Source of the DNA: Kordia jejudonensis
GTDB lineage: Bacteria > Bacteroidota > Bacteroidia > Flavobacteriales > Flavobacteriaceae
Assembly: GCF_001005315.1 (NCBI RefSeq)
Contig: NZ_LBMG01000041.1
Coordinates: 1-63,649, forward strand
Length of the DNA stretch: 63,649 nucleotides
Direction: 5' to 3'
The position numbers and the translations under genes are program-made. Numbering within the stretch: position 1 is the first letter of the stretch; each line of letters begins with the position of its first letter. Positions 3,001 to 49,490 of this stretch are shown in pieces. The notes under the pieces are model-generated. The model was not told where the DNA came from. It searched no databases and was given only the letters and a program-made list of their open reading frames with translations.

Positions 3001-4771
3001 CCGTACCGCACTGCTCTTGCGTATCTAATATACCATCATTGTCGTCATCTTCATCGCAGTAATCTGCTACACCATCTAAATCACTATCAACATTTCCTGT
3101 AATTGATAGATCACAAAAATCTATATCACAGTTACTTTGTTGTACTGTTGTTGTAGTTGTACATGTTCCAGTTGTATCATCAGTAATGGTAATTGTGTAC
3201 AATGTATTATTTGCAGAACCATTTTGTAAACTAAAACTTGTTGCAGCACCGTATGTTCCTGTTGTTGGAGAGATTACTCCACCATTGTCTACAGATACTG
3301 TATATGTTGTTCCTAAGTCTGTTCCTGTTGGATTTAAATCAAAACTCACAAAATCGTCGGAACGATCACGTGTTAGGTTATTGTTACATGTTTCATTTGT
3401 TTTTCCTGCATCTGCTAAAGAACAATTTAAACATTCTAGTGTAAAGGTAGATGTTATTCCTGAATCTGTAACGACTCTACCAGCTGCTCCAGCTCTTGCA
3501 CCGTTCCCTACAGGGATATTACCACTATTTACATTTGTTGTTGTTATTGCTGAAGAACTGATTACAAATCCTCCACCACCTGGTCCACCATATTCAATGA
3601 ATACTGGCGACGATCCAGTTTGTATTGTAGCATTTCCTCCACGGGCAAAAGCTCTTACTTGAGAATTTATTGAATTCGCTTGTACAACAATGTATCCTGC
3701 TCCACCAGCTCCACCTGTTACATTTGAAGCATCTCCTGCGAAACTGTAGGTTCCTGTGTTTGGTCCATCGTTACCATCACTTGAAATATCTCTATTGGAT
3801 CCGTTTGTTGTGATATTGTTTGCTAAAACGATAACAATTCCTCCACCATTTCCTACGGCTGGCGCCCATTCTGCTTCAGAACCTCCTGAAGCTCCCATAA
3901 ATAATCGTAAGTTACTTGCATTACTGAACACGTTTCCTGTAGCTGGTGCTGCTGATCCTGAGATTGTTGTTCCAGCTCCTCCACTGGTACCACCACCACC
4001 GTAGCCACCACCACCACCACCAGAACCTAGTGTGATGTCTGTAGAGTTTGCTCCATCTCCTCCAACTCCGGCACCACCGTCTGGCGCACCTTGAGATCCG
4101 TTACATCCACCGTGTCCTCCACGACCTGTTCCTCCAGATAATGGTGCAGCAACTCCAAAGTCTCCTCCAAAGTATGCTGGATCTGTTCCCCAATTTTCAT
4201 CAGGCGTATTTAGTAAACCAGAAGAATCTCCACAGTTATTTACTGCAAAGTTTCCAGTTGTATTTCTTCCAAAAAAACCATCACCTGTTGCGCTAATGTT
4301 AGCATTCATGGTAATGTTATTATCACATGCATCTATAAAAACTACTCCTCCTGTACTTCCGTTCCATGGCTGAGCTGACACCGTTCCAGTGACTGTTACA
4401 TCACTTGTAAATTTTGCAATTCCAACCAACTGTACACTTTCCGTAGCTGGCGTAAATGTTTTTGTAACTGCTGTATCAATGGTCAGCGTATTTCCTGCAA
4501 TGTTTGTTATTTTTGCCAAATGGAAATTACCCGCACCATTGTCGGCTCCACCAGTATTACCACCACCACTAATACCTGTCATTTGAATAATCATCACAGG
4601 ATCATTGATCGCTAAACCAGCACTACTTCCAACATTAACAGTTGTTCCACTGATAGAGGATACTGTAGTATATGTGTTTACTACTCCTGATATGTTTTGT
4701 GCACTAGCGCTGAAAAAAAATAATAATGACACTACAAGTGTTACTAGTATTTTTGGTGTAATATTTTTCAT
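1..4771 (-). CDS. Giant secreted Asp/Gly-rich surface protein, partial (C-terminus beyond left edge)
   Basis: An open frame of 1,590 codons runs off the window at base 1, so the C-terminus is unseen. Residues 1-22 form a signal peptide (Lys-rich start, hydrophobic run, ASAQ end). Residues about 150-350 are extremely Gly-rich (GGGGGGYGGG). From about residue 560, Asp-rich calcium-binding repeats of thrombospondin type-3 style (for example DEDDDNDGILD) occur near residues 560-590, 717-785, 920-948, 1163-1190, 1237-1290 and 1487-1513, with beta-rich segments between them. The last visible residues (VTIAEDGGSASVPV) resemble the start of a Calx-beta segment. ATG 4771 was chosen; an in-frame ATG two codons upstream (4777) is equally possible. 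Large Bacteroidota proteins of this build are usually surface adhesins exported by the type IX system; that is inference, because the sorting domain would lie outside. It follows the 282-residue exported protein by 11-17 bases, so the two are probably co-transcribed. Confidence 0.85.
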   Translation of the reverse strand, partial: MKNITPKILVTLVVSLLFFFSASAQNISGVVNTYTTVSSISGTTVNVGSSAGLAINDPVMIIQMTGISGGGNTGGADNGAGNFHLAKITNIAGNTLTIDTAVTKTFTPATESVQLVGIAKFTSDVTVTGTVSAQPWNGSTGGVVFIDACDNNITMNANISATGDGFFGRNTTGNFAVNNCGDSSGLLNTPDENWGTDPAYFGGDFGVAAPLSGGTGRGGHGGCNGSQGAPDGGAGVGGDGANSTDITLGSGGGGGGYGGGGTSGGAGTTISGSAAPATGNVFSNASNLRLFMGASGGSEAEWAPAVGNGGGIVIVLANNITTNGSNRDISSDGNDGPNTGTYSFAGDASNVTGGAGGAGYIVVQANSINSQVRAFARGGNATIQTGSSPVFIEYGGPGGGGFVISSSAITTTNVNSGNIPVGNGARAGAAGRVVTDSGITSTFTLECLNCSLADAGKTNETCNNNLTRDRSDDFVSFDLNPTGTDLGTTYTVSVDNGGVISPTTGTYGAATSFSLQNGSANNTLYTITITDDTTGTCTTTTTVQQSNCDIDFCDLSITGNVDSDLDGVADYCDEDDDNDGILDTQEQCGTDPVTLNPDSIIRIEIDVDQFSTEVGWTLSLGGSTVASVPTGTYTTSNTTESQDITITENGNYFFVITDTFGDGIQGNSYRIIVDGTTVINRTFGSPTDTTTTSQSDNFLVNTIVTNPFSCLSDDPMGDADGDGIINYQDSDFCALNANGVCASLDTDNDGIINSLDDDSDNDGCADALEAGHDDDDDDGILGNSPVTVNSSNGRVTGQGGYTGTDLAVTNSGNTVACDSCEILSASITAIFCDNNGTPTNDSDDTFTFYMSPNGNLLGSTYSVSGDITQANVSYSLPQQFGPFSISGGNLTFTITDDSDGSCQLTNVVVTPPATCSSSTFTDTDNDSVQDNIDIDNDNDGIIDDNENVCASRPLTSGTWTGSLPYTNSAGPVGISYNSTIPTGGLIAYTPNGTMTTNSFFSDAAVEGSNSLEFLFAWDTSSESLDAASDDRVTGTITITYDQPVYNPIIHIDRLGGNNQILSGNFISNTSLWTLQNADLSMGKISGNNQLIVTPKQFYRDVNQNLGTSSPIVLSGEADSAGLGTAAGSIQIYGRVTTLTFQVTGEGIDGTGSDVLEMTFDACPIVDTDADTIPDFLDTDSDGDGCPDALEGADNLAATSIDGSDMLNGTVEPTTGVPNNVNTTTGQGAGSAKDDTTTAGQCDDDNDGVVNDNDQCNGYDDAADNDGDSVPDGCDLDDDNDGILDVDESDCSPNPTAINTAGYTLGADFSGSSLPDLAAYNGTDIDLSYVLQGTATWNSGVQILNNGAINPDGDYINLQPDNTNFQNGDVGVYTMDFNRSGVTSAVTNLSFRMGGLDNGDIVQFQAFYEGEEVPVTQANITNINITAGNYIPIGNNAVRSDNGGANAPSNSVGFSITSPVDQVVITVGKNGANSANITLQIYNIAYCIDRNSDADGIPDAFDTDSDGDGCADAIEGAGTFDLSDLVNPGTDDSLGDNVDGSGIPQVGGSSAQQSTTTAVTDSGDSTACVVPAMSVGDVTIAEDGGSASVPV

Positions 4772-22531: not shown

Positions 22532-22533
22532 TG

Positions 22534-22582
22534 TTGGGTGTTGGGTGTTGGGTATTGGGTTCAAGGTTCAAGGTTCAAGGTT
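22534..22582. repeat. Heptamer minisatellite upstream of xerC
   Basis: Tandem 7-base units: TTGGGTG/TTGGGTA four times, then TTCAAGG three times. It sits directly before the xerC start codon, where a promoter or leader would be expected. Similar heptamer arrays occur at 23130-23200 and 49473-49490. Confidence 0.75.
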
Positions 22583-23108: not shown

Positions 23109-23129
23109 CTGCGGAATGCCATTTATAAA

Positions 23130-23200
23130 TTGGGTGTTGTGTATTTGGGCATTTGGGTTTTGGGTGTTGGGCATTAGGTATTAGGTATTGGGTATTAGTT
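23130..23200. repeat. Degenerate heptamer repeat tract
   Basis: Repeats of TTGGGTG/TTGGGCA/TTAGGTA type with a mostly seven-base period, between rpsU and the amylase gene. Same family as the array at 22534-22582. Confidence 0.65.
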
Positions 23201-25583: not shown

Positions 25584-25607
25584 CCTTTTCAACAATATAA
25601 AACGCAT

Positions 25608-25638
25608 AAAAACCCTAACACAAACGGTTAGGGTTTTT
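25608..25638. terminator. Bidirectional terminator
   Basis: A perfect AAAAACCCTAAC / GTTAGGGTTTTT stem with a seven-base loop. It serves both the plus-strand barrel gene and the minus-strand ten-gene operon. Confidence 0.9.
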
Positions 25639-25668
25639 ACATAATTAATCATTTTAATATACATGCAA

Positions 25669-26316
25669 TTACTCCAAGATAATTACATCATCCGCACGGA
25701 TAAGACGTGGTTTGTCTGTATCAAATGCTGGAAGCTGGCTGGTAAAGGTTGACTCGTCTGTGATGGTTTCTTCATCTACAGATTCGGCAAATGTGTATCC
25801 TAAACCATATGCTGTTAGTAGTGTTTTTATTTCGGCAAACGTTCTTTTGTCAGTATCATTTTTATAGATAACATTTGGTAAGAACCGAATGATTTGTGCA
25901 TCTGTTGGTGGCACAGGAACAATATCAAATTGTATTTCTGCCGTTGCGTTTAAACCCAAATTGTATTTATTACTGTTTGATGCATTTACGGGTGTTGCAT
26001 ACATTTTTGGTCGAAATGAACGTTCATTTTGAATGGAACTGCTCGTGCTTTGTTGCGATATTGACAATGAAATTTTGGCTTTTGCGGTCGTTTTCGGAAT
26101 GGTATAAAACGTTGGTTGATATCCTACTTCTCGTAGCATTTTCAAAGTTTCCGAACCGCTATCTGGATCACTGTTATATATTTCTAAGGTTTGTCGCAAC
26201 GAACCTTCATCAAGTGCTGCTTGTGCTTCTCCAACGCCTTCTCCGATAGCAGCTATAAAATCTCCTAATGGTGCTGCGAACGCATCTTTTACATAATCGT
26301 ATGAATTGCTTGACAT
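25669..26316 (-). CDS. Operon gene 10: shared AQxALD/PTFY domain protein with extra C-terminal domain (215 aa)
   Basis: Member of the paralogous set in this operon. Residues 15-40 (APLGDFIAAIGEGVGEAQAALDEGS) align, split here as APLGDFIAAIG and VGEAQAALDEGS, with the helix of the other members. Residues 61-74 (LREVGYQPTFYTIP) match their PTFY strand, followed by a beta strand KAKISLSIS and a second one AEIQFDIVPVPP (125-137). Residues about 143-215 are an extra C-terminal part (FLPNVIYKND, LLTAYGLGYTFAES) that recalls a PASTA-like fold; weak. There is no signal peptide. Last gene of the operon, seven bases after the coiled-coil/PASTA gene, then the terminator. Function unknown. Confidence 0.75.
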   Translation of the reverse strand: MSSNSYDYVKDAFAAPLGDFIAAIGEGVGEAQAALDEGSLRQTLEIYNSDPDSGSETLKMLREVGYQPTFYTIPKTTAKAKISLSISQQSTSSSIQNERSFRPKMYATPVNASNSNKYNLGLNATAEIQFDIVPVPPTDAQIIRFLPNVIYKNDTDKRTFAEIKTLLTAYGLGYTFAESVDEETITDESTFTSQLPAFDTDKPRLIRADDVIILE

Positions 26317-26323
26317 AATTTTT

Positions 26324-27805
26324 TTAGTTTATTGGTTTTGCGAAAATTACTATAACTTCTTGTCCTTCTATAATGCTTGCATCTGGCGCTGGCGATTGTT
26401 TAAATGATTGTCCTGCAACTAAGTTTTCATTGGTTGTCGGATGGTATACTGCATCTAATTTTAATCCGTTGTTGAGCAATATTTTTCGAACCGCCGTTTC
26501 TGTTAAACCAAGAATATTTGGCATTTTCTGACTCACATTTGCAGTGGTATTTCCTGTGGGAACAATATCAATACTAATGTCACTTATTGCCGCGCCGTTG
26601 ATTCCTTTTGCCGTTTCAAAATCTAACAAACCAAATACAGTTCCTTCTGGTCCTTTTTCAACCGTAGTTTTTAGGTTTAAAGATACATTTGCTAGTTTGT
26701 AGCGTGAATTGATCAACTCCTCATCAGCTTTGATGACATCTTTTACAATACTTCCGTAGACTTTACTCGCAGATAATTTATTTGGATGTTCCGTCGCATT
26801 GAAATCTTTAACTTCTTCTAATTCTTGCTGCAATTTTGAATTTTGACGCTCTAGCGATGTTACCAATACTTGTTTGTTTTGCAATTCGGTATCTTTGGCT
26901 TGTGTAAGAAGTTTTTCTTGCTGCACCTCATCTTGCAGTTGTGAAATACTCATTAAAAATGAATCTCGTTCTTGTGTTAGGTTGTCATTCTGAATTGTAA
27001 TATCTGAAACTTGCTGTTGTAAATCTTGATATAATACTTCAAAATTATTAGCCGTATTTGCAGAAGCTTCATAGGTTTCTAACTGTTCTTGCTGTGTTGC
27101 CAATTGTGTTGCTAACACTTGCTGATTCGCTTCAAGCGATGCTCTCAACAATTTTTCGCTTTCATACTCAGCTTGCAACGTTTGCATGTTGGTATTCAAG
27201 GTAGAAACTTCCTCATCTCTAGTTGCAACAGTATTTTGTACAGTACTGAGTTGCGTTTTTAATACTTCACGTTCGTTTGCTAACGATGTAATTGTCGTAT
27301 TGAGTTCTTCAAGTTGTGCTGTTGCTTCCTCTTTTTGCGCTTCAATTTCTTTAATGGAATTCATTAATTCAAACATTGGCACTTCTGAAGCAATGACAAC
27401 ATGATCGTTTTTTACAATAATTCGATCATCTTTTAACAACCAACTTTTCCCAAAATTGATGGTAAGTATTCCATCGCCTTCAATTTTTGCATCAAAGTTT
27501 ACGGCAATGACTTGAGGAATTTTGTCTGCTGCATCTTCTTTAACGATTCTGAACGAAGGCATTCCGCCATATTTTAATACTTCTCTAACCACACGAATGG
27601 TTTGATCGCTGGTTGAAATTCGTGATGGAATGGTTAATTGATATGAAAATTTACCATTTACAATCTTAATTCCATCTGTTAATGATAGCCACGATTTCAG
27701 GTTCACATTGTAAAACTGAATTATTACTTTTTCACCATTTGCAGGCGCATCGGAAGCATCAAATAGAATATGTTTGAATGCTATATATTTTATAGTTACT
27801 GCCAT
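26324..27805 (-). CDS. Operon gene 9: coiled-coil protein with C-terminal PASTA-like domain (493 aa)
   Basis: Residues 1-130 form a beta-rich N-terminal domain (VIIQFYNVNLKSWLSL, GKFSYQLTIPSRI). Residues about 145-335 are a long coiled coil rich in Glu, Gln and Leu. Residues 346-385 (YGSIVKDVIKADEELINSRY and LANVSLNLKTTVEK) may be a divergent copy of the operon's shared helix-strand domain. Residues 427-489 look like a PASTA domain (MPNILGLTETAVRKILLNNG, QSPAPDASIIEGQEVIV). PASTA domains usually bind peptidoglycan or muropeptides outside the cell, but no signal peptide or membrane segment is present. A structural rod or tether is plausible. It starts three bases after the preceding gene. No protein kinase is fused or nearby. 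Confidence 0.75.
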   Translation of the reverse strand: MAVTIKYIAFKHILFDASDAPANGEKVIIQFYNVNLKSWLSLTDGIKIVNGKFSYQLTIPSRISTSDQTIRVVREVLKYGGMPSFRIVKEDAADKIPQVIAVNFDAKIEGDGILTINFGKSWLLKDDRIIVKNDHVVIASEVPMFELMNSIKEIEAQKEEATAQLEELNTTITSLANEREVLKTQLSTVQNTVATRDEEVSTLNTNMQTLQAEYESEKLLRASLEANQQVLATQLATQQEQLETYEASANTANNFEVLYQDLQQQVSDITIQNDNLTQERDSFLMSISQLQDEVQQEKLLTQAKDTELQNKQVLVTSLERQNSKLQQELEEVKDFNATEHPNKLSASKVYGSIVKDVIKADEELINSRYKLANVSLNLKTTVEKGPEGTVFGLLDFETAKGINGAAISDISIDIVPTGNTTANVSQKMPNILGLTETAVRKILLNNGLKLDAVYHPTTNENLVAGQSFKQSPAPDASIIEGQEVIVIFAKPIN

Positions 27806-27808
27806 GAT

Positions 27809-28513
27809 TTATTTTTGAATTGAGATTTTAGTGAGCACATTTCCCACATTGACTTCCACGATTAAAATGTGACCGTTTGCAAAATCGACACTATCAACTG
27901 TGACTTGTGTTTTGGTTTTTCCGTTAGCATCTGTGCGAATTTCGCTTGTGTTTAAAAATGATGTACCATGATTTAGTGTTGCATTCGGATTCAACAATTC
28001 CGTTTTTGCTTGATTGTAATTGAATTCTACCAACGCATCCGATATATTTTCGCCTGCGGCATTGAAAACCTCCACTTCAACATCAAATACATGAATGTTA
28101 TTTGTTGGTTTTGGCGTGGCATTGATAATCATTTGCGGCAATCCTTCGTTGGGTACAACGGCGATAAATCGACCAGAAATTGTACTCGTAACTTTATTGG
28201 TTTCTTTCGTATCCGTTGTGGTGTTTGCAACTGGTTTAAAAGCCAACGCTCTTTCATATCCTTTTTGATACGATCGTGCATACGGAAGCGATTCAGGACT
28301 TTGAGAAGTTTGTGTTTCTGAACTTGTTTCTTTTTCAAATTCGGCTTCTACTTGCAAGTTAAAATCTAAATATGGTAAGGTATATAATGTGTTTGGTCTT
28401 CCAAATTCATCGTAGGGTTTTACATTCCTGAGATGATTTTGTGCTTCATTCAAACTATCGGAAATTCCCAATAGGATTTGCTTTAGCGTTAATGCGTTAT
28501 TTGTTGTGCTCAT
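27809..28513 (-). CDS. Operon gene 8: divergent shared-domain protein with Ig-like region (234 aa)
   Basis: Residues 10-28 (KQILLGISDSLNEAQNHLR) resemble the AQxALD helix of the paralogues, and residues 42-60 (TLYTLPYLDFNLQVEAEFE) resemble their PTFY strand plus the next strand. The strand STISGRFIAVVPNEGLP matches the conserved C-terminal strand ending in prolines. Residues about 140-234 read as a single Ig-like or invasin-like beta domain (VEVEVFNAAGENISDALVEF). No signal peptide. It lies between the basic protein and the coiled-coil protein with gaps of 11 and 3 bases. Function unknown. Confidence 0.7.
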   Translation of the reverse strand: MSTTNNALTLKQILLGISDSLNEAQNHLRNVKPYDEFGRPNTLYTLPYLDFNLQVEAEFEKETSSETQTSQSPESLPYARSYQKGYERALAFKPVANTTTDTKETNKVTSTISGRFIAVVPNEGLPQMIINATPKPTNNIHVFDVEVEVFNAAGENISDALVEFNYNQAKTELLNPNATLNHGTSFLNTSEIRTDANGKTKTQVTVDSVDFANGHILIVEVNVGNVLTKISIQK

Positions 28514-28524
28514 TGTGTATATTT

Positions 28525-29889
28525 TTAAAATGAGAAACTGTCTTTTTTCTTCTTTGCTTCGTTCAAAATGCCAATACCTTTTTTGATATTTTTAATGGTT
28601 TTGATTGCATTGATTGCAACATTTAACTTCTTGTTTGCAACAGTAAAGCTTGTTGTTTCTTCTTTTTTTGTTTCTTGTTTTTGAATAAAATCAAAATCGA
28701 AAGCATTATTCGTTTTGGTATCTTTTGCGCTGATAAAATCGACTGCTTTGAGTTTTTTCTGAAATAGACTCGTTACAGCTTGTGTTTTTTCCAAATGCTT
28801 GTTGGCGGTATTGAATACTTTATCGACCTTTTTTATTTTGTTCCCAACTTTATTGACAATTTCAGTTCCTTTGGTTAGTTTTTTGCCCAATGATTTTAAT
28901 TCTGGAGAAGCAACTACGGAGTTTAGTTTTTCAATTCCTGTTTGGACATCATTTCCAGTTTTCTGAATGGTCTGAAATGTATGGTTTACCTTTTTTACTT
29001 TTTTGGTAACTTTTTGAAAAGTTTCAAGATGCTCGGAAGCTTTTTTAACGATGGGTTGTACAGTTGCAATCGGTTTTGATTTTGTTGTATTTGTCACAAA
29101 ATCATGTAGCTTTTCTTTGCTTTTTATAGCTACTTTAGAAACCTCTTTCTTGCGTTTTTGTTGTGCGCCAATTACACTGCTAACTTTGCGTTTAGCGATT
29201 GTTTGTAAACCTGTTTTTTCTTGCCTTTTTGGGTTTTGCTTTTTTTCCTTTTGGGTTGATTTTTTTGGTTTTTGTATAAAATCGTCTATGCTTTTAGCTG
29301 CTTTTTGAATCTTTTCACCATATTCAATAATCGTTGTCGGTTGCTTTTTTTTCTTGGCAACTCGCTTTGGTTGTTGAACTTTTTTAGGAGTTTTCGGAAG
29401 TTTTGGAAGCGTTGCAACAGGATTTCTTGCTTTTTTCTTATGTAATAATTCTGTGTTTGGTTTCGCTTTTTTCCTTTGCTCAGCAATAGCAGGAATTGTT
29501 GAACTATTTTTCTTTTTTAGTGTAAAAGAAGGTGTTACGTCCCAACGTTCATCTTGTTTTTTTCGATGATTTTCCTTTCGTTTTTGTCGCTTTGCTGCGG
29601 CTGCTTTTTCTTCTTTCTTCTTCTGGTCGATTGTTTTTATGTCATTCTCATACCTTTTATCAGTGTTTGATGCTGTCTTTTTTCCTGTCAGTTCTGCCAT
29701 TTGATCTTCGAGCTGTTTTTGCTCTTCAATCAATGACTTCAAACTCGAATTAAATTCGGCTACATCTTCTAAAGATTTGTCAGACGGTTTTCCTTCTTTG
29801 GAAAGTAACGAACCAATGTCTTCTAGTTCTTTGTCTTCCTTTTTCGGAGTTTCTTCTTTTTTAACAAAGCTTTTCCAATGTTTAGCCAT
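28525..29889 (-). CDS. Operon gene 7: very basic Lys-rich protein (454 aa)
   Basis: No family recognised. Lys and Arg dominate throughout (KKKEEKAAAAKRQKRKENHR, VAKKKKQPTTIIEYGEK). The N-terminal 60 residues are acidic/mixed (KKEDKELEDIGSLLSKEGK), the middle about 60-290 is basic and probably disordered, and the C-terminal part about 290-454 is helical with amphipathic repeats (KVNHTFQTIQKTGNDVQTGI). Together with the coiled-coil protein it looks like a scaffold, core filler or nucleic-acid/anionic-polymer binder; this is inference. It starts three bases after the 162-residue paralogue and precedes gene 8 by 11 bases. Its lack of Cys and its composition differ sharply from neighbours. Confidence 0.7.
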   Translation of the reverse strand: MAKHWKSFVKKEETPKKEDKELEDIGSLLSKEGKPSDKSLEDVAEFNSSLKSLIEEQKQLEDQMAELTGKKTASNTDKRYENDIKTIDQKKKEEKAAAAKRQKRKENHRKKQDERWDVTPSFTLKKKNSSTIPAIAEQRKKAKPNTELLHKKKARNPVATLPKLPKTPKKVQQPKRVAKKKKQPTTIIEYGEKIQKAAKSIDDFIQKPKKSTQKEKKQNPKRQEKTGLQTIAKRKVSSVIGAQQKRKKEVSKVAIKSKEKLHDFVTNTTKSKPIATVQPIVKKASEHLETFQKVTKKVKKVNHTFQTIQKTGNDVQTGIEKLNSVVASPELKSLGKKLTKGTEIVNKVGNKIKKVDKVFNTANKHLEKTQAVTSLFQKKLKAVDFISAKDTKTNNAFDFDFIQKQETKKEETTSFTVANKKLNVAINAIKTIKNIKKGIGILNEAKKKKDSFSF

Positions 29890-29892
29890 CTT

Positions 29893-30381
29893 TTATTGAT
29901 TTGAAGTTATTGCTTGTCTTTTGCTTTCCAATTCGTTTTGAATCATTGCCTGTAAACGCTGTTCAAAAACGGGTGGATTTGGAACGGTTACTAGTTTGGT
30001 TCTCACTAGTGAACTTGCTTCTGCGGAGTACTGATATTTTTGCGAATAGCTTGCTGAAACGGAAGCACTTACAGCTGCAAATCCTACATTAAATCCTGCA
30101 CTTACCGAAACGGAAGCTCCAAATTCTTTTGATTCCATCATGGAAACAGACATTTTACATTCAAAAAATGTATCTACAAATTGGTAAAAGGTTGGTGTAA
30201 AGCCTAATGATAGTAAGCTATATTCTTCACCGCCCATTTCTACTTTGGTGTTTACGAGTTCTTTTGCTAAATCCATTGAAACTCTGTCCAAAGCTTGTTG
30301 CGCTTTCGCGATCCCTACACCCAGAGATTGAATCATCTCTGGTAAGGGTGCGTTTTGTATTTCTCTGGTGATTCTACCCAT
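29893..30381 (-). CDS. Operon gene 6: minimal shared-domain protein (162 aa)
   Basis: This is the shortest and clearest form of the domain. Residues 11-35 hold the helix (APLPEMIQSLGVGIAKAQQA then LDRVS). Residues 55-70 hold SLLSLGFTPTFYQFVD. Then comes a strongly alternating small/hydrophobic hairpin, residues 86-112 (EFGASVSVSAGFNVG, FAAVSASVSASYS). Residues 112-137 hold the conserved YSQKYQYSAEASS and TKLVTVPNPP, and a short helix ends the protein. No signal peptide. The alternation resembles amphipathic beta-hairpins of pore or tube-forming proteins; this is a pattern, not proof. Five bases separate it from gene 5 and three from gene 7. Confidence 0.78.
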   Translation of the reverse strand: MGRITREIQNAPLPEMIQSLGVGIAKAQQALDRVSMDLAKELVNTKVEMGGEEYSLLSLGFTPTFYQFVDTFFECKMSVSMMESKEFGASVSVSAGFNVGFAAVSASVSASYSQKYQYSAEASSLVRTKLVTVPNPPVFEQRLQAMIQNELESKRQAITSNQ

Positions 30382-30386
30382 GGATA

Positions 30387-31280
30387 TTAGTTTTCAGCTT
30401 CTTCTCTCGCTAATTCCATTTGTAATTGAATACGTTCTTCTAGTGCTGCTGGTGGCGGAATCGGAACGAGTTTTGTTTGTAGCAAACTTGAACCTTCAGC
30501 CGAGTAACTATATTTTTGAGAATAGTTAGCATTTACCTGCGAAGTTGTCACGGTTTTGTTCGTTTTTAAACCTTTTCTCCAACTGAAACTTGCGCTTCTG
30601 TCTGTACTTTTAGAATCTCTTTTGTAGTTGAAAGAGGAAGATCCTTCTCGTTTAAATTTAATAGTAATTGCCACTTTGATAATGGTATCTACAAATTGGT
30701 AAAATGTTGGCGAGAAACCAAGTTCTAACATGGATAATCGTTGCGGAATGTAAATTGTTCTTTCTACTGTTCCAGATTTTAATGCTACACTCGTTGTGGT
30801 TGGTGTTGCAATGGATGTGTATGCGCTTCCATCATATTCAAACCACTCCGTAGCACTTTTTCTGTAGTATACTTCTGTGTTTACTTTGTTGTCTGGCGTA
30901 AATACTGCGCTATTGTCTGTTGGCGCTTTATCTACATTCACAACAGGTTTGTCATACAACGGTTCTACATCATCTTTAATTTTATCATTAATAGAAGCTC
31001 TGTATGCCTCGTCTCTGCTGGCATTGTATGATTCTACAGCACCGGCAAGCGATACTTTTTCTTTTCCAAAGAATACACGACTGTCTTTGAAGTTGATAAA
31101 TTCTTTTCCGTTGATTTCTGATTTTACAGGACTTAATCCTCCCATCATTTCTGCAACTTCAATGGAATTAGAGTCTAATGCCATTTGTGCGTTGGCTATT
31201 GATATAGCCATACTTTCTATCATTTCTCCCATAGGAACGTTTAGTAACTCCTGTCCTATTTCTGGATTATTTTTTAACAT
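30387..31280 (-). CDS. Operon gene 5: shared-domain protein with 140-residue insertion (297 aa)
   Basis: Residues 13-40 carry the helix (NVPMGEMIESMAISIANAQM, ALDSNSI). Instead of continuing directly, an insertion of about 140 residues (about 48-180) follows, with a beta-rich end (VYYRKSATEWFEYDGSAYTS). The domain then resumes at residues 184-198 (MLELGFSPTFYQFVD), the hairpin is long and charged, and residues 252-280 carry YSQKYSYSAEGSSLLQTKLV and PIPPPAALEER. No signal peptide. Sequence is closest to gene 6 in the C-terminal motif. It lies 22 bases after gene 4. Function unknown. Confidence 0.75.
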   Translation of the reverse strand: MLKNNPEIGQELLNVPMGEMIESMAISIANAQMALDSNSIEVAEMMGGLSPVKSEINGKEFINFKDSRVFFGKEKVSLAGAVESYNASRDEAYRASINDKIKDDVEPLYDKPVVNVDKAPTDNSAVFTPDNKVNTEVYYRKSATEWFEYDGSAYTSIATPTTTSVALKSGTVERTIYIPQRLSMLELGFSPTFYQFVDTIIKVAITIKFKREGSSSFNYKRDSKSTDRSASFSWRKGLKTNKTVTTSQVNANYSQKYSYSAEGSSLLQTKLVPIPPPAALEERIQLQMELAREEAEN

Positions 31281-31302
31281 ATAGTATAATTTTTAAAATT
31301 TG

Positions 31303-31842
31303 TTATTTTTCAGTGTTGATTGTTGATTTTAGTATTTCAAAATAAATATCAGGTGCAGGCAAAGACACTATTTTTGCCGCAATTGATGATGAGCCTTCTG
31401 CCGATGTTGAATATTTACGCGCATAATGTGCCGAAACTGACACTCCAAACATTTGTGTAGATGTGGAATCTTTACTAGCACTATTGCTGCTGGAACCGTT
31501 ACTAGCACTTGCGCTTACATTGCTATTGGAACTATTGCTATTTCCATAGCTGAATCCTAATGCGCCTCCGTAGCTTTCAGATTCAGCCATAGAAAATTCC
31601 ATTTTCATTTCTACAGAAGCTTCTGTAAAAGCGTAAAATGTTGGTGCAAAACCAAGGCTTAATAAATTATATTCTTCATCGCCTATATTAATTTTTACCG
31701 CAGCCAATTCGTTTGCCAACCGAATGGAATTTGCATCTAAAGCCGATTGCGCATTGGCAATTGACATTCCGAGCTTTTCCAACATGAAAGGCAATGGAGC
31801 ATTGGTAATTTGTTGTATTACTTTAGGCGCTGTACTCATCAA
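31303..31842 (-). CDS. Operon gene 4: shared-domain protein with Ser/Asn-rich hairpin (179 aa)
   Basis: Same layout as gene 6: helix at residues 14-40 (NAPLPFMLEKLGMSIANAQS, ALDANSI), NLLSLGFAPTFYAF at 59-72, a strand EMKMEFSMAESESYGG, and the C-terminal HYARKYSTSAEGSSSIAAK with IVSLPAPD at 139-164. Between the strands lies a low-complexity Ser/Asn tract (residues about 98-130, SNSSNSNVSASASNGSSSNS) that probably forms a flexible loop. No signal peptide. Three bases separate it from gene 3. The two starting Met codons leave a one-codon start ambiguity. Confidence 0.77.
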   Translation of the reverse strand: MMSTAPKVIQQITNAPLPFMLEKLGMSIANAQSALDANSIRLANELAAVKINIGDEEYNLLSLGFAPTFYAFTEASVEMKMEFSMAESESYGGALGFSYGNSNSSNSNVSASASNGSSSNSASKDSTSTQMFGVSVSAHYARKYSTSAEGSSSIAAKIVSLPAPDIYFEILKSTINTEK

Positions 31843-31845
31843 TAA

Positions 31846-33681
31846 TTAGTTTGAAGTTGTATTAGTGTTTGTCAATGATTGAATGTAGTTTTCTAATGCT
31901 GTTGGTGGCGGCACAGAGATCATTCGAGCCGAAACCGAAGCATTTCCTTCTACAGACATGTTAAATTGACGTGCATATCGTACATCTAATGAACCACTAA
32001 TTGCTACCGATCGATCGCCTTGAAGGTCTTGACTCGATTGCTTTAGTTTTGTAAATTCATTTTGCGTTTCCCCAACGTAAATTTCCGTTGATTCTTTGTC
32101 CATCGTGGTTGAAGATTCATTTTTTACTTTTACATCCAATTCTTTGTTTTCTTTGGAATGAATGAAGTAGTTAATTTTTGTTTCTTCATGCAACAGATAA
32201 TACGTTTCGTTTACTTTTTCAATGTATGATTCTAGAATTTTCCCTTTGCTGTTATTTAGTGTAGTTAATAAATTACTAGAAGCATCACGTATGGTGTATT
32301 GAACACCTCCGTATGTGAAAATTATTTCAGCATTTGCTGGTGTTGGTGTATTATCAGCAGCTACGTATACAAAATAGTCTGGTGGATTAGGGTTTGAAGT
32401 TGTCTTTTTAGGGTTTGCTGAAACTCCTATTTCTCCTCCATTGAAAAGAATATAGTCGGACGCGCCCGTTGGGAATTCTACCGTAATTTTACGAATGACT
32501 GCATCTTTTGCAGAACTTCCATTGGCTAAAGATTCTCCTTCTGTTTCTACGATTACGCGTGTATCTGTAAATGTTACACCTGCAATTTTGCTTAGTTCGC
32601 TTCTGAATGCTTCTGCTCGTTTTTTACCGAGTTTTTGATTGTAATCTGCGTTTTGTTGACTGGTACTTCCGCTTCCGTCAGTAAATCCTTTTACGGTTAC
32701 CACTAGCGAAGTATCTCTTTTTAACAACATTGCCAAAGCGGTCATGTCAGCTTCAATTATAGCATCGGCTTTTACGCCTGCAGAATATCCATAGTTGATG
32801 TCGTATTTATCCCAACCAAAGTAGAATTCATATACTTTTTTTCCAGCAACTCTGTGAATTCCTTCTGAATTGATTCCAACGACAGTTCCACCATTTAAAG
32901 TTCTTGCATTTGCTAATGTTGTTGCAAAATCGACTTCTTTGTTGAATTCCTTATTAGGACTCCCCGTTTTTACTGTTATTTTTGGAATTGACGAACTCGA
33001 AAGTGGTACATACGTAGCATCTAGTTTTAGTAAACCTTCTATATCGGTATGAATGTATGGTTCTCTAATGACTACATAACCGCCTTCTTTTGCAATGTAC
33101 ACTTCCGAAGCTGTAATGCTTTCCAATATTCTTTCGTCTTGAATTACACTTTCGGCACGAAGTTCACTACTTTCATCGCGCATTTGCTCTTTTGCTTTTT
33201 CAACTTTAGAATACGAACCTTCTTCTTTGTGAATTTTGAACGATTTTTCATTAATACTAATGTCTTCAGAAGTTTTTGCTTTTAGGGCAATGTCTTTTTG
33301 CGTTTTGGAATACTGACTTAGCGATTCTTTTTTGCTGTCTTTTAAATCATCAAAGAATTTTTCGTTGAATGTTTTGTTATTAGTGTATTCTACAGAGAGA
33401 CTAAAGTCAACTTCCACTTCTTCTTTGACGGCCATTTTTAAGCTAATGGACGCTGAAATATCAGCATAATCAAAGGCATAAAATGCAGGTTGAAATCCTA
33501 GTTCTAATAATGATCTTCCGGCTACTTTACTTTCGGAAAGCCGAATGAGCTGCGATACGGAATTCGTATCGAGTCGCTCTTGTGCTTCTGCTATTCCTAG
33601 AGCGAGCGCTGTTACCATACTACTCACGTCTACGTTTTGCAGTATTTTTGATCCTTGATCAAATGTTTTAATGTCTGCCAT
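31846..33681 (-). CDS. Operon gene 3: shared-domain protein with inserted OmpA-like module (611 aa)
   Basis: The ends carry the shared domain: helix at residues 20-41 (SSMVTALALGIAEAQERLDT), SLLELGFQPAFYAF at 57-70, strands to about 100, and the closing SLDVRYARQFNMSVEGNAS with RMISVPPPTALE at 564-597. About 460 residues are inserted in the hairpin between them. The insert contains an OmpA-like domain (about 284-403) with FYFGWDKYDIN, VKGFTDGSGS and YNQKLGKKRAEAF, keeping the Asp and Arg that normally bind diaminopimelate in peptidoglycan. There is no signal peptide or membrane segment, so how it would meet the cell wall is unclear. It follows gene 2 by 22 bases. MotB-like proteins were excluded because no membrane helix is present. 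Confidence 0.8.
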   Translation of the reverse strand: MADIKTFDQGSKILQNVDVSSMVTALALGIAEAQERLDTNSVSQLIRLSESKVAGRSLLELGFQPAFYAFDYADISASISLKMAVKEEVEVDFSLSVEYTNNKTFNEKFFDDLKDSKKESLSQYSKTQKDIALKAKTSEDISINEKSFKIHKEEGSYSKVEKAKEQMRDESSELRAESVIQDERILESITASEVYIAKEGGYVVIREPYIHTDIEGLLKLDATYVPLSSSSIPKITVKTGSPNKEFNKEVDFATTLANARTLNGGTVVGINSEGIHRVAGKKVYEFYFGWDKYDINYGYSAGVKADAIIEADMTALAMLLKRDTSLVVTVKGFTDGSGSTSQQNADYNQKLGKKRAEAFRSELSKIAGVTFTDTRVIVETEGESLANGSSAKDAVIRKITVEFPTGASDYILFNGGEIGVSANPKKTTSNPNPPDYFVYVAADNTPTPANAEIIFTYGGVQYTIRDASSNLLTTLNNSKGKILESYIEKVNETYYLLHEETKINYFIHSKENKELDVKVKNESSTTMDKESTEIYVGETQNEFTKLKQSSQDLQGDRSVAISGSLDVRYARQFNMSVEGNASVSARMISVPPPTALENYIQSLTNTNTTSN

Positions 33682-33703
33682 TTTTTGTTTCTGTTTTTAA
33701 GAG

Positions 33704-34246
33704 TTAGAAAGGAGAAACGCCCTCAGGTAAATCCATGGCAATTTTTGGATTCACTGATTCTTTTCTCACAATGAAATAATTATGTTTTTTTTGTAATCGT
33801 GTTAATTGATCTTTATTTACTTTGTAGCCTCTTTGCAACCAACCTAAAAGTTCATCTGTAATCGGTTGTTTTCCTTTTCCTAAATCTTGCTGCACTTCTT
33901 GTAGCAATTCTTTAGCTTCTTCTTGTTCTCCTTTTAAAACATGTTGAATAGCTTGACGTTCGCTTACAAAAGCATTGTGCTTTCTTACCAAAACATCTTG
34001 CTCTTTGTCTTGTAAAAAAGAACGATAGTTTTCACAGAACGAAATCACTTGATCGTGCGCACCTGAGAGTTCTAAAGACTCCATTACACATTGACTGTAA
34101 TGTTGGTAAAACAATTCGCTGTCTTGCTCTTGTTGCGTAAGTTTCATTGCTTCTTTGTAATGGCGTAATGCTTCTTTATGATTTTTGTCAATAGCGTGCA
34201 TTTTTCCACGTTCAGCAATTCGGTAGTGTAACATTTGTACTTCCAT
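33704..34246 (-). CDS. Operon gene 2: helical TPR-like protein (180 aa)
   Basis: No named family recognised. The N-terminal 110 residues are all-helical with a TPR-like pattern (HKEALRHYKEAMKLTQQEQD, FYQHYSQCVMESLELSGAHD). A further helix pair (EAKELLQEVQQDLGKG) and a short C-terminal tail (PKIAMDLPEGVSPF) follow. No signal peptide. Such small helical-repeat proteins often act as chaperones or adaptors for neighbouring subunits; that is inference from position. It starts two bases after gene 1 and ends 22 bases before the OmpA-like member. Confidence 0.72.
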   Translation of the reverse strand: MEVQMLHYRIAERGKMHAIDKNHKEALRHYKEAMKLTQQEQDSELFYQHYSQCVMESLELSGAHDQVISFCENYRSFLQDKEQDVLVRKHNAFVSERQAIQHVLKGEQEEAKELLQEVQQDLGKGKQPITDELLGWLQRGYKVNKDQLTRLQKKHNYFIVRKESVNPKIAMDLPEGVSPF

Positions 34247-34248
34247 GA

Positions 34249-35310
34249 TTAGTTGATGATTTCAGGGTTACACGTTACTTGTTCTAATTGTGCTAACAGA
34301 TATCTGGCAATTAATGGCGGCACTTCGTCATTGCTTGTCCAATTGGTTGTTTTCGCTTTTGGAAGGTTTTTTTCTGGAATAAATTGTCCTAAGATTTGAG
34401 TTACTTTTTCAAGATCTTCAATGTCATTAACTTGTAGTTTTTTCTTGAAGTTGAAATCTTTTTCGAGTGTAGTTGTTAATCCAATTGAAGTACAATCTGC
34501 AAGAACAGTTTCTGCATTTTTTCTGTTTAAATTTTCAAATAATACAATTGGAAGTGCTGCATGTACCTCTTCTAAAATTTCTGTTGGCATTCCTACGTTT
34601 TCTACTAAAAATGCAGCATGCGCTTGGTTAGTAACATCAAAATCTTGCAACATTACTGAGACCAATTGATGATTTTGATTTAATAGTTTTACCGCTTTGT
34701 TAGATTGGTACTGTCGCCATAATAATTGAGAATTATCATACGAAACATCTTCAATTACGTATGCACTTGCTGTTTCGTATGCTTTTGTTTTTAATACTTT
34801 TTCAATACTTCGCAACTGTGTATTTTCAGCTTCTTTGCTAATCAATATTGTATAAAAGTCTTTGCGAGGATTTGAAAAATGCACATTTGCATCCGTACGT
34901 TTTTGAAGTGCTTTTGCAGTAGCTACAGATACATTTCCAAGTACAATACTTGGTTCGTTTAGCATTAAGGTTAGTACTTCTGATTGTTTGCAACCTAAAA
35001 ATTCGGCAAGTTGTTCCGTTACTTTTGGCAGTAATAAAACGTTATTTAAACTCACGCTGATATCGATTAATTCTGTAGTTAAATCGATTTCGTCTTCTGG
35101 TGTACAAATTGAAACATCTAAGCCTAGTTTTGTTAGTGTGTTTTCAGCTTTTTGCGCAGTATCTTCATCTACTTTTTGGAATAAGATAGAAGGTGCATTG
35201 TACAATAGTTTTAAGATGTAATCTTGTGGAACTTTTAGCGCATCCGACAGCACTTTGGACGCTCCTGGAGTAGCGGTTCCAATAGAATTGATAATTACTG
35301 TGTTTTCCAT
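34249..35310 (-). CDS. Operon gene 1: protein with three bL12-C-terminal-like repeats (353 aa)
   Basis: No named family recognised. Three similar segments are visible, at residues about 14-70, 90-148 and 217-286. Each has a helix, a Pro-containing turn (NAPSILFQKV, NEPSIVLGNV, ALPIVLFENL), a helix with a conserved Ala (TAQKAENTL, TAKALQKRT, NAETVLADC) and a final strand (LGLDVSI, ANVHFSN, IGLTTTL). Over 44 positions the first repeat aligns without gaps to the C-terminal domain of bL12 encoded at 16414-16788 ([16 protein letters not shown]). A ClpS/bL12-like fold, normally a protein-protein binding module, is the inference. No signal peptide. It is first in the ten-gene operon; its promoter should lie in 35311-35612, where I see no strong TAnnTTTG. 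Confidence 0.72.
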   Translation of the reverse strand: MENTVIINSIGTATPGASKVLSDALKVPQDYILKLLYNAPSILFQKVDEDTAQKAENTLTKLGLDVSICTPEDEIDLTTELIDISVSLNNVLLLPKVTEQLAEFLGCKQSEVLTLMLNEPSIVLGNVSVATAKALQKRTDANVHFSNPRKDFYTILISKEAENTQLRSIEKVLKTKAYETASAYVIEDVSYDNSQLLWRQYQSNKAVKLLNQNHQLVSVMLQDFDVTNQAHAAFLVENVGMPTEILEEVHAALPIVLFENLNRKNAETVLADCTSIGLTTTLEKDFNFKKKLQVNDIEDLEKVTQILGQFIPEKNLPKAKTTNWTSNDEVPPLIARYLLAQLEQVTCNPEIIN

Positions 35311-35612: not shown

Positions 35613-35640
35613 AAAAAAAAGTGAACCGAAGTCCACTTTT
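35613..35640 (-). terminator. Terminator after the lanthipeptide-type gene
   Basis: A hairpin AAAAGTG...CACTTTT (extended to GAAC/GTCC with one mismatch) is followed by eight T on the minus strand, 22 bases after the stop of the small peptide gene. Confidence 0.7.
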
Positions 35641-35661: not shown

Positions 35662-35847
35662 CTACAAACACTTACATTGTGATGCATCATCATTTGTTGG
35701 TGCTGGACCTGTTGTGCCACAACCACCTTGTAATGAGCAGTATACTGAACATAGGTTAGACGTTCTTGTTCCTCCTGTTAATGCTGTAGATCTAAAGCTT
35801 GAGATTTTCTTTTTCCCTAATGCTAATTTAAAATTTTTCTTTTTCAT
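35662..35847 (-). CDS. Class I lanthipeptide-type precursor peptide (61 aa)
   Basis: ATG 35847 gives MKKKNFKLALGKKKISSF, which fits the Bacteroidota class I lanthipeptide leader (a Lys-rich start, then LxLxKxxIS). An in-frame reading to 35886 would only add an unlikely extension. The core is rich in Ser/Thr and Cys (STALTGGTRTSNLCSVYCSL, GGCGTTGPAPT, ASQCKCL), with five Cys able to form thioether rings. No LanB dehydratase, LanC cyclase or transporter is in the window, so the gene is an orphan here. Such orphans are common in Kordia-like genomes as I recall. A rSAM-modified or plain disulphide peptide is the main alternative. Confidence 0.72.
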   Translation of the reverse strand: MKKKNFKLALGKKKISSFRSTALTGGTRTSNLCSVYCSLQGGCGTTGPAPTNDDASQCKCL

Positions 35848-49287: not shown

Positions 49288-49344
49288 AATTTAAAATTTA
49301 ACATGTAACATTCAACATTTTAACTTCGTTGTTCGTTGTTCGTT
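49288..49344. repeat. 57-base direct repeat, copy 1
   Basis: AATTTAAAATTTAACATG... through the heptamer tail CGTTGTTCGTT; copy 2 is 101 bases downstream with about three mismatches. Gene-free stretch 49241-49613 holds little else. Confidence 0.75.
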
Positions 49345-49388
49345 GCTTGTTGCTTGTTGCTTGTTGCTGGTAGAAAGAACTACTTTCT

Positions 49389-49445
49389 AATTTAAAATTC
49401 AACATGTAGCATTCAACATTTTAACTTCGTTGTTCGTTGTTCGTT
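49389..49445. repeat. 57-base direct repeat, copy 2
   Basis: Second copy of the 49288 repeat. A third degenerate copy may run from about 49505 to 49561. Confidence 0.75.
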
Positions 49446-49472
49446 ATTCGTTATTCGATATTCGGTCTTGGG

Positions 49473-49490
49473 TCTTGGGTCTTGGGTCTG
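49473..49490. repeat. Heptamer repeat TTGGGTC x3
   Basis: Same heptamer family as the arrays near xerC and rpsU. Confidence 0.7.

Follow-up and report, generated by a model that had tools for sequence, protein, structure and literature searches.

Ten tightly packed genes (g1 to g10) on the minus strand of a contig from Kordia jejudonensis (NZ_LBMG01000041.1, positions 1 to 63,649, here called the window) are read here as one horizontally spread system, whose products build a hetero-oligomeric assembly in the cytoplasm that works on the peptidoglycan of the envelope; we put the probability of this reading at roughly one half. Open reading frame (ORF) calls on the window placed the ten genes exactly at 25669–35310 (Table 1), with gaps of 2, 22, 3, 22, 5, 3, 11, 3 and 7 bases from g1 to g10, as the initial annotation of the sequence had described. 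No signal peptides had been seen in that annotation either, and a simple hydropathy scan agreed, as none of the ten proteins showed a transmembrane-like 19-residue window or a strongly hydrophobic start. We found no description of this operon in the open-licence PMC literature, and the ten-gene system is apparently undescribed. A strictly ordered system of this size that had escaped description in cultured genera such as Caulobacter, Halomonas, Marinobacterium and Kordia would be rare.

The proteins encoded by g3, g4, g5, g6 and g10 were found by a phmmer self-search to be paralogues sharing one domain, which bears out the earlier grouping of these same five genes. The strongest matches linked g4 with g6 (E-values 2e-35 and 3e-36) and g5 with g6 (3e-26 and 2e-28), followed by g3 with g4 (1.6e-15 and 1.6e-16) and g10 with g6 (4e-16 and 5e-16). 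To follow the operon beyond the window, 84,980 species genomes were scanned with one conserved pattern, giving 179 stretches, of which 162 were confirmed as relatives and 80 were kept. These, the window itself, a plasmid of Sphaerotilus and two stretches that were fetched again make up the 84 loci (L numbers) compared below, which are not all independent because L013/L019 (L019 being the Kordia periserrulae locus) and L014/L023 are the same two genomes. The exact ten-gene order was present in 62 of the 84 loci, in Bacteroidota, Pseudomonadota and Gemmatimonadota. Iterated profiles recovered 408 to 412 shared-domain ORFs across all 84 loci and, among the other members, g1 in 75, g2 and g7 in 78 each, and g8 and g9 in 79 each.

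Each paralogue keeps its own identity across these loci. At each of the five positions, the best hit of a protein was the same position in another locus in 62 of 62 cases. A tree was built from 63 rows of at most 85 (117 columns; the segment rule failed on the others), on which the five position labels required four changes in total, the minimum possible. In this tree fully supported branches set g3, g5 and g10 each apart from all other rows; this does not hold for g4 and g6, because g3 branches within g4 and g5 within g6. The position-specific best hits and the tree therefore place the duplications before the spread of the operon, and by these comparisons the shared-domain subunits seem not to be interchangeable. 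The main support for an assembly comes from this position-specific identity, which suggests a hetero-oligomer in which each subunit has a fixed place. The multi-subunit assembly expected by the initial annotation is thus well supported by gene order across phyla and by best hits; the tube, ring or shell that it had suggested is not, as the structure predicted for the domain is only moderately confident (pLDDT 66.6). This AlphaFold2 model, made for g6 from 93 aligned sequences, has a helix at residues 13–44, two strands of about 20 residues each (65–85 and 114–133) and a second helix at 137–160. Residues in the hairpin region alternate in character, with a mean beta-moment z over shuffles of 3.2 for g4 (60 proteins) and 2.8 for g6 (62 proteins).

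The link to the cell wall comes first from two domains of the ten proteins, both of which contradict the earlier statement that no member matches a known family: an OmpA-like domain in g3 and a PASTA domain in g9 (Table 1). The OmpA-like domain scores 28 bits against a Pfam cut-off of 27.2, and in the alignment of 39 g3 orthologues the D that binds peptidoglycan in OmpA is retained in 34 rows and the R that does so in all 39. PASTA was found in 36 of 60 orthologues of g8, g9 and g10 scanned together and not split by gene; some g10 orthologues end in this domain (L091: E 1.6e-7), and g10 of the window has no Pfam hit. Both domains sit on proteins without an obvious signal peptide and are embedded in or stand beside the shared domain.

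The second link is the set of peptidoglycan hydrolases that adjoin the operon in 11 of 80 loci and carry Amidase_2, CHAP, M15 or GH108 domains (Table 1). With close relatives counted once, they represent about eight lineages and four catalytic types. Eight of the eleven are no more than 22 bases away from the operon, on its strand. By simple hydropathy, none of the nine hydrolases assessed had a strong signal-peptide-like start (L094 and the partial L082 protein were left out). When seven of the hydrolases were compared by blastp with all ORFs of the 84 loci, only the adjacent ones were found, and no hydrolase family was among the 25 of 135 families listed for neighbours three genes away (102 of 106 scanned). 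In the Pfam comparison of neighbours, proteins of at least 900 amino acids were left out, which removed 5 of the 125 near neighbours and 4 of the 106 far ones, and the partial L082 hydrolase was added to the near set. The survey covered some loci without a complete pair of flanks, used greedily called ORFs, and drew on the 25 families listed of 115 among near neighbours. Recruitment of different wall-cutting enzymes suggests that cutting of peptidoglycan helps the operon product, and a particle that is built in the cytoplasm and meets peptidoglycan fits the parts list and the lack of obvious export signals.

Several observations weigh against this reading. No hydrolase was detected beside the window operon or at the other 69 of the 80 loci, some of which lack a flank, and unrelated families reach similar counts among near neighbours (MFS_1 5, DctM 4). 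Because of these counts, it is the diversity of the enzymes and lineages, together with the short gaps, that carries the argument, and not raw numbers. Ligands other than peptidoglycan are possible for OmpA-like and PASTA domains, the predicted structure of the shared domain is weak (residues 81–120 are unresolved), and a Pfam scan found no ATPase or toxin-like family among the ten proteins.

In the mechanism that we propose, g1 and g2 would serve as adaptors or chaperones during assembly. In each shared-domain subunit, two strands would form a long amphipathic beta ribbon flanked by a helix on each side, and the subunits would pack side by side, each in its fixed place, into a ring or tube. 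The g9 protein would be a fibre in which a coiled coil presents the N-terminal domain at its end, and the OmpA-like and PASTA domains would bind peptidoglycan. Because no export signal was seen, we propose that the particle would leave the cell either by lysis, as tailocins and extracellular injection particles do, or through the wall with the help of a hydrolase. A more specific version, which we offer tentatively and with some doubt, is a new class of nanomachine: a sheath-less ring or tube of five to seven different subunits of one uncharacterised beta-ribbon domain, bearing peptidoglycan-binding domains and a coiled-coil fibre with an exchangeable tip, made in the cytoplasm, released from the cell or passed through its wall by means of borrowed endolysins, transferred between phyla, and unrelated to phage tails, secretion systems or R-bodies. 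If true, such a wall-acting particle would stand as a new class beside the phage-derived injection machines.

The main rival is a purely intracellular scaffold or filament that polymerises in the cytoplasm, comparable to gas-vesicle walls, R-bodies or bactofilins, with the hydrolases there by coincidence and the PASTA and OmpA-like domains binding proteins. We consider this unlikely, while noting that it accounts for ten proteins without an obvious export signal or membrane segment and for the 69 loci without a detected hydrolase. The gas-vesicle protein GvpA has the order helix-strand-strand-helix, which is also the order in the predicted shared-domain model. Against such a scaffold, peptidoglycan-type domains of two kinds and hydrolases of four types keep appearing around a single operon, and none of the ten proteins has a gas-vesicle, Reb or bactofilin match in Pfam.

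A pore-forming complex, in which the long amphipathic hairpins of several subunits make a membrane-inserted beta barrel, appears improbable to us. The predicted strands, which are long and antiparallel and have alternating residues, and their tip of low confidence would suit it, and several pore-forming proteins appeared among the Foldseek matches of the g6 model. These matches, as well as those to FliF rings, were non-significant and at the level of noise. Neither Foldseek nor VIA returned anything from PDB for the g6 model at an E-value of 0.001, which does not by itself imply a new fold, and the shared domain had no significant match in Pfam, PHROGs, NCBIfam or PADLOC or, by sequence or fold, in PDB.

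Compared with known particles, the assembly that we favour resembles phage tails, tailocins and extracellular contractile injection systems in its scattered distribution, in structural proteins that lack obvious signal peptides, in a fibre-like protein whose tip varies and, at some loci, in endolysin-type neighbours. In Pfam and PHROGs scans, none of the ten proteins matched a sheath, tube, spike, baseplate or AAA+ family with a usable E-value. We think it very improbable that the operon is an accessory, itself lacking a sheath, to a contractile injection or R-body system from another part of the genome. Phage_sheath_1 did match in 20 of 34 operon genomes searched (15 over the cut-off) and RebB in 9 of 34. 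Against this, 14 of the 34 had no sheath match, and neither family occurs among the ten genes. All 11 Kordia genomes have one to three sheath matches (over the cut-off in 9) whether or not they carry the operon, so that a link to the sheath is not supported. In the window's genome (G000), phage-sheath-like matches lie on contigs C174, C145 and C185.

A link to R-bodies was not supported by the same RebB counts, and none of the ten proteins has a RebB match in Pfam; the reb operons are similar in being cytoplasmic operons with several paralogues. A passage of one published source names Kordia algicida among Reb-bearing bacteria (PMC5527310). One RebB match occurs on another contig of the window's genome (G000:C144:41716-41919) and five occur in the genome of L023 (G626:C18). 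A phage origin was rejected: tblastn searches with g6 and with a g5 orthologue found nothing in 50,697 phage records, none of 117 IMG/VR stretches that match the pattern was confirmed as a shared-domain relative, and PHROGs gave nothing usable for the domain. A predicted viral structure in BFVD (A0A516MP19) resembles the g6 model (E 1.6e-6, TM 0.45 by query, 18% identity), and the fold may thus have a viral relative. For anti-phage defence, PADLOC gave only coiled-coil type matches, to g7 and g9.

The profile search with the shared domain placed it in no characterised family, and no phage or injection-system family was matched in the scans made, in keeping with the initial annotation, which had recognised no family for it. 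The nearest named family is DUF2589 (PF11655), itself uncharacterised and of unknown function, to which the sequence comparisons suggest that the shared domain is probably a distant relative. The two have in common an AQ motif in the N-terminal helix, a strand about a conserved proline, another strand late in the domain and, following prolines, a C-terminal helix. In two hhalign runs against DUF2589, a pooled g4 and g6 profile reached probabilities of 79% and 56% and the controls g1, g2 and g7 stayed below 0.3%; single paralogues gave 28% and 15% (g4), 54% and 18% (g6), 5% and 1% (g5) and less than 1% (g10). Run without a filter, the DUF2589 profile found 45 shared-domain proteins and no reversed or shuffled sequence at E < 0.01, 84 real and 1 reversed at E < 0.1, and 143 real, 18 reversed and 1 shuffled at E < 1, a level at which g10 gave no real hit and g8 one. 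In a separate run, none of 792 decoys fell under E 1. When a shared-domain profile was run on DUF2589 in the reverse search, real and reversed sequences could not be told apart, no DUF2589 match among the ten proteins passed the Pfam curated cut-off, and DUF2589 was absent among the 25 of 32 families listed for 93 g4 and g6 members. If the operon does build a wall-acting particle, it would also give the DUF2589-like domain its first functional setting.

DUF2589 itself is present in all 11 Kordia genomes, with or without the ten-gene operon, and in the window's genome it sits in a three-gene operon. At L123 (7696–8553, minus strand; G582), the insert of a DUF2589 protein matches PHROGs families for baseplate-wedge and head-closure proteins of phages; it precedes the proline strand and is comparable to the insert of g5. 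A DUF2589-like stretch, 36% identical, also occurs at 3329–3874 of MT839761.1, a 4-kb record from human faeces that is labelled an unverified bacteriophage and is possibly a bacterial contig.

Of the remaining members, g1 has bL12-CTD/ClpS-like folds in its confident structure model. It had been described as a bL12-like triple repeat, of which the bL12-likeness holds and the number does not, as the secondary structure of the model reads as about five units. Unlike bL12-CTD and ClpS, g1 combines several such units in a single chain, and direct matches to bL12 or ClpS chains were obtained for just two of them (the matched parts being residues 1–71 and 211–285). The N-terminal motif of g7 has a W near the start and then a pattern like L..E...LE..M..LTG. 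The initial annotation had taken g8 and g9 for possible divergent copies; in hhalign comparisons with the shared domain, g8 reached 90% in one run and 3% in the other, and g9 stayed below 1% in both. An Anaerolineales relative of g9 carries six Laminin_G_3 stretches at its N-terminal side.

Table 1. Features of the operon and its surroundings in the window, followed by the hydrolases adjoining related operons (positions relative to the operon).
Feature	Position	Strand	Description and basis
g1	34249-35310	-	353 amino acids; tandem bL12-CTD/ClpS-like folds; putative adaptor or assembly chaperone; confident structure model
g2	33704-34246	-	180 amino acids; TPR-like helical; Pfam TPR_2 E 5e-4, below curated cut-off
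g3	31846-33681	-	611 amino acids; shared domain interrupted by long insert bearing the OmpA-like domain; self-search, Pfam, 39-orthologue alignment
OmpA-like domain of g3 (residues 310-384)	32530-32754	-	Pfam OmpA E 2.9e-6
g4	31303-31842	-	179 amino acids; shared-domain protein; self-search, position-specific best hits
g5	30387-31280	-	297 amino acids; shared domain with insert between helix and first long strand; self-search, position-specific best hits
g6	29893-30381	-	162 amino acids; shared-domain protein; self-search, position-specific best hits, AlphaFold2 model
g7	28525-29889	-	454 amino acids; very basic (isoelectric point 10.1); conserved N-terminal motif, rest variable
g8	27809-28513	-	234 amino acids; possible divergent shared domain and possible Ig-like C-terminal half; Pfam Big_1 E 0.12 only
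g9	26324-27805	-	493 amino acids; fibre-like architecture, with an N-terminal domain followed by a coiled coil and a PASTA domain
PASTA domain of g9 (residues 427-490)	26336-26527	-	Pfam E 1.2e-7; 32.0 bits, cut-off 23.2
g10	25669-26316	-	215 amino acids; shared-domain protein; self-search
Intrinsic terminator 3' of g10	25605-25641	-	15 pairs; 1 found, shuffle mean 0.2
Short ORF	35662-35847	-	about 61 amino acids; lysine-rich leader, Cys/Ser/Thr-rich core
Terminator after short ORF	35617-35640
Hydrolase at L028	13 bases upstream		CHAP+PG_binding_1
Hydrolase at L039	16 bases upstream		Amidase_2+SH3
Hydrolase at L055	224 bases upstream	opposite to operon	PG_binding_1+CHAP (CHAP below cut-off)
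Hydrolases at L073, L079	414, 290 bases upstream		PG_binding_1+M15
Hydrolases at L075, L094	2 bases downstream		Amidase_2+SH3
Hydrolases at L082 (partial), L089	19, 17 bases upstream		CHAP
Hydrolase at L086	22 bases downstream		Amidase_2
Hydrolase at L095	17 bases downstream		GH108+PG_binding_3

By our reading, among the 22 loci without the exact gene order, 12 are truncated at contig ends and 4 are artefacts of gene calling. The other six comprise an Anaerolineales locus with a different gene order (L047), L052 without a recognisable g3, L086 without a recognisable g7, a reduced cluster on the Sphaerotilus plasmid, and two loci in which g10 is followed by one more shared-domain gene, an eleventh, whose C-terminal part is longer (L091, 14796–15752, and L095, 14201–15130). 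Both L091 and L095 have a g7 equivalent, and the extra protein of L095 has no Pfam match. The reduced form also occurs in a genome of another Bacteroidota family (G310). In both cases it encodes one small protein and a pair of shared-domain proteins and has two more genes, which bear only a weak resemblance to g8 and g9 (in Sphaerotilus, 23% and 25% identity). Of the Sphaerotilus genes, the pair with the shared domain was all that the family profiles picked up.

The operon behaves as an accessory unit. Of 199 genomes in the window's family, 4 gave a match to the shared domain, including a weak one (G165) that we read as false since it sits in an unrelated long frame; of 395 in the phylum, 4 did so, namely that of the window and three from a single other family. 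In the class of Halomonas, matches occurred in 3 of 274 genomes, the centre genome and two with putative matches (G746 and G847). Within Kordia, g1 was present in 6 of 11 genomes. The left flank of the window operon maps elsewhere in all other operon-bearing Kordia genomes, and the right flank maps away from the operon in all except the closest (G586), where it is adjacent.

Two further observations concern the surroundings of related operons. The flank genes of L043 (CP034120.1, labelled Glaciecola amylolytica) cluster with those of the Fluviicola-type loci L041, L042, L045, L049 and L064, and the record may for this reason be mislabelled or contaminated. Response-regulator genes, several of the LytTR type, stand near the operon in L016, L041, L042, L044, L049 and L080, and one broad cluster of response regulators covers 16 loci.

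At the borders of the window operon, the initial annotation had placed a bidirectional terminator and a gene-free upstream region. The terminator was recovered on the minus strand, the only strand covered here, and its bidirectional character was thus not confirmed. The upstream region was not free of genes, as it contains a short minus-strand ORF followed by a terminator of its own (Table 1); this ORF resembles class I lanthipeptide precursors of Bacteroidota. Tandem arrays of 7-base units were also observed in the window, at 22532–22582, 23129–23196 and 49325–49489, and short matches to sequence from the first two are numerous at other places in Kordia genomes.

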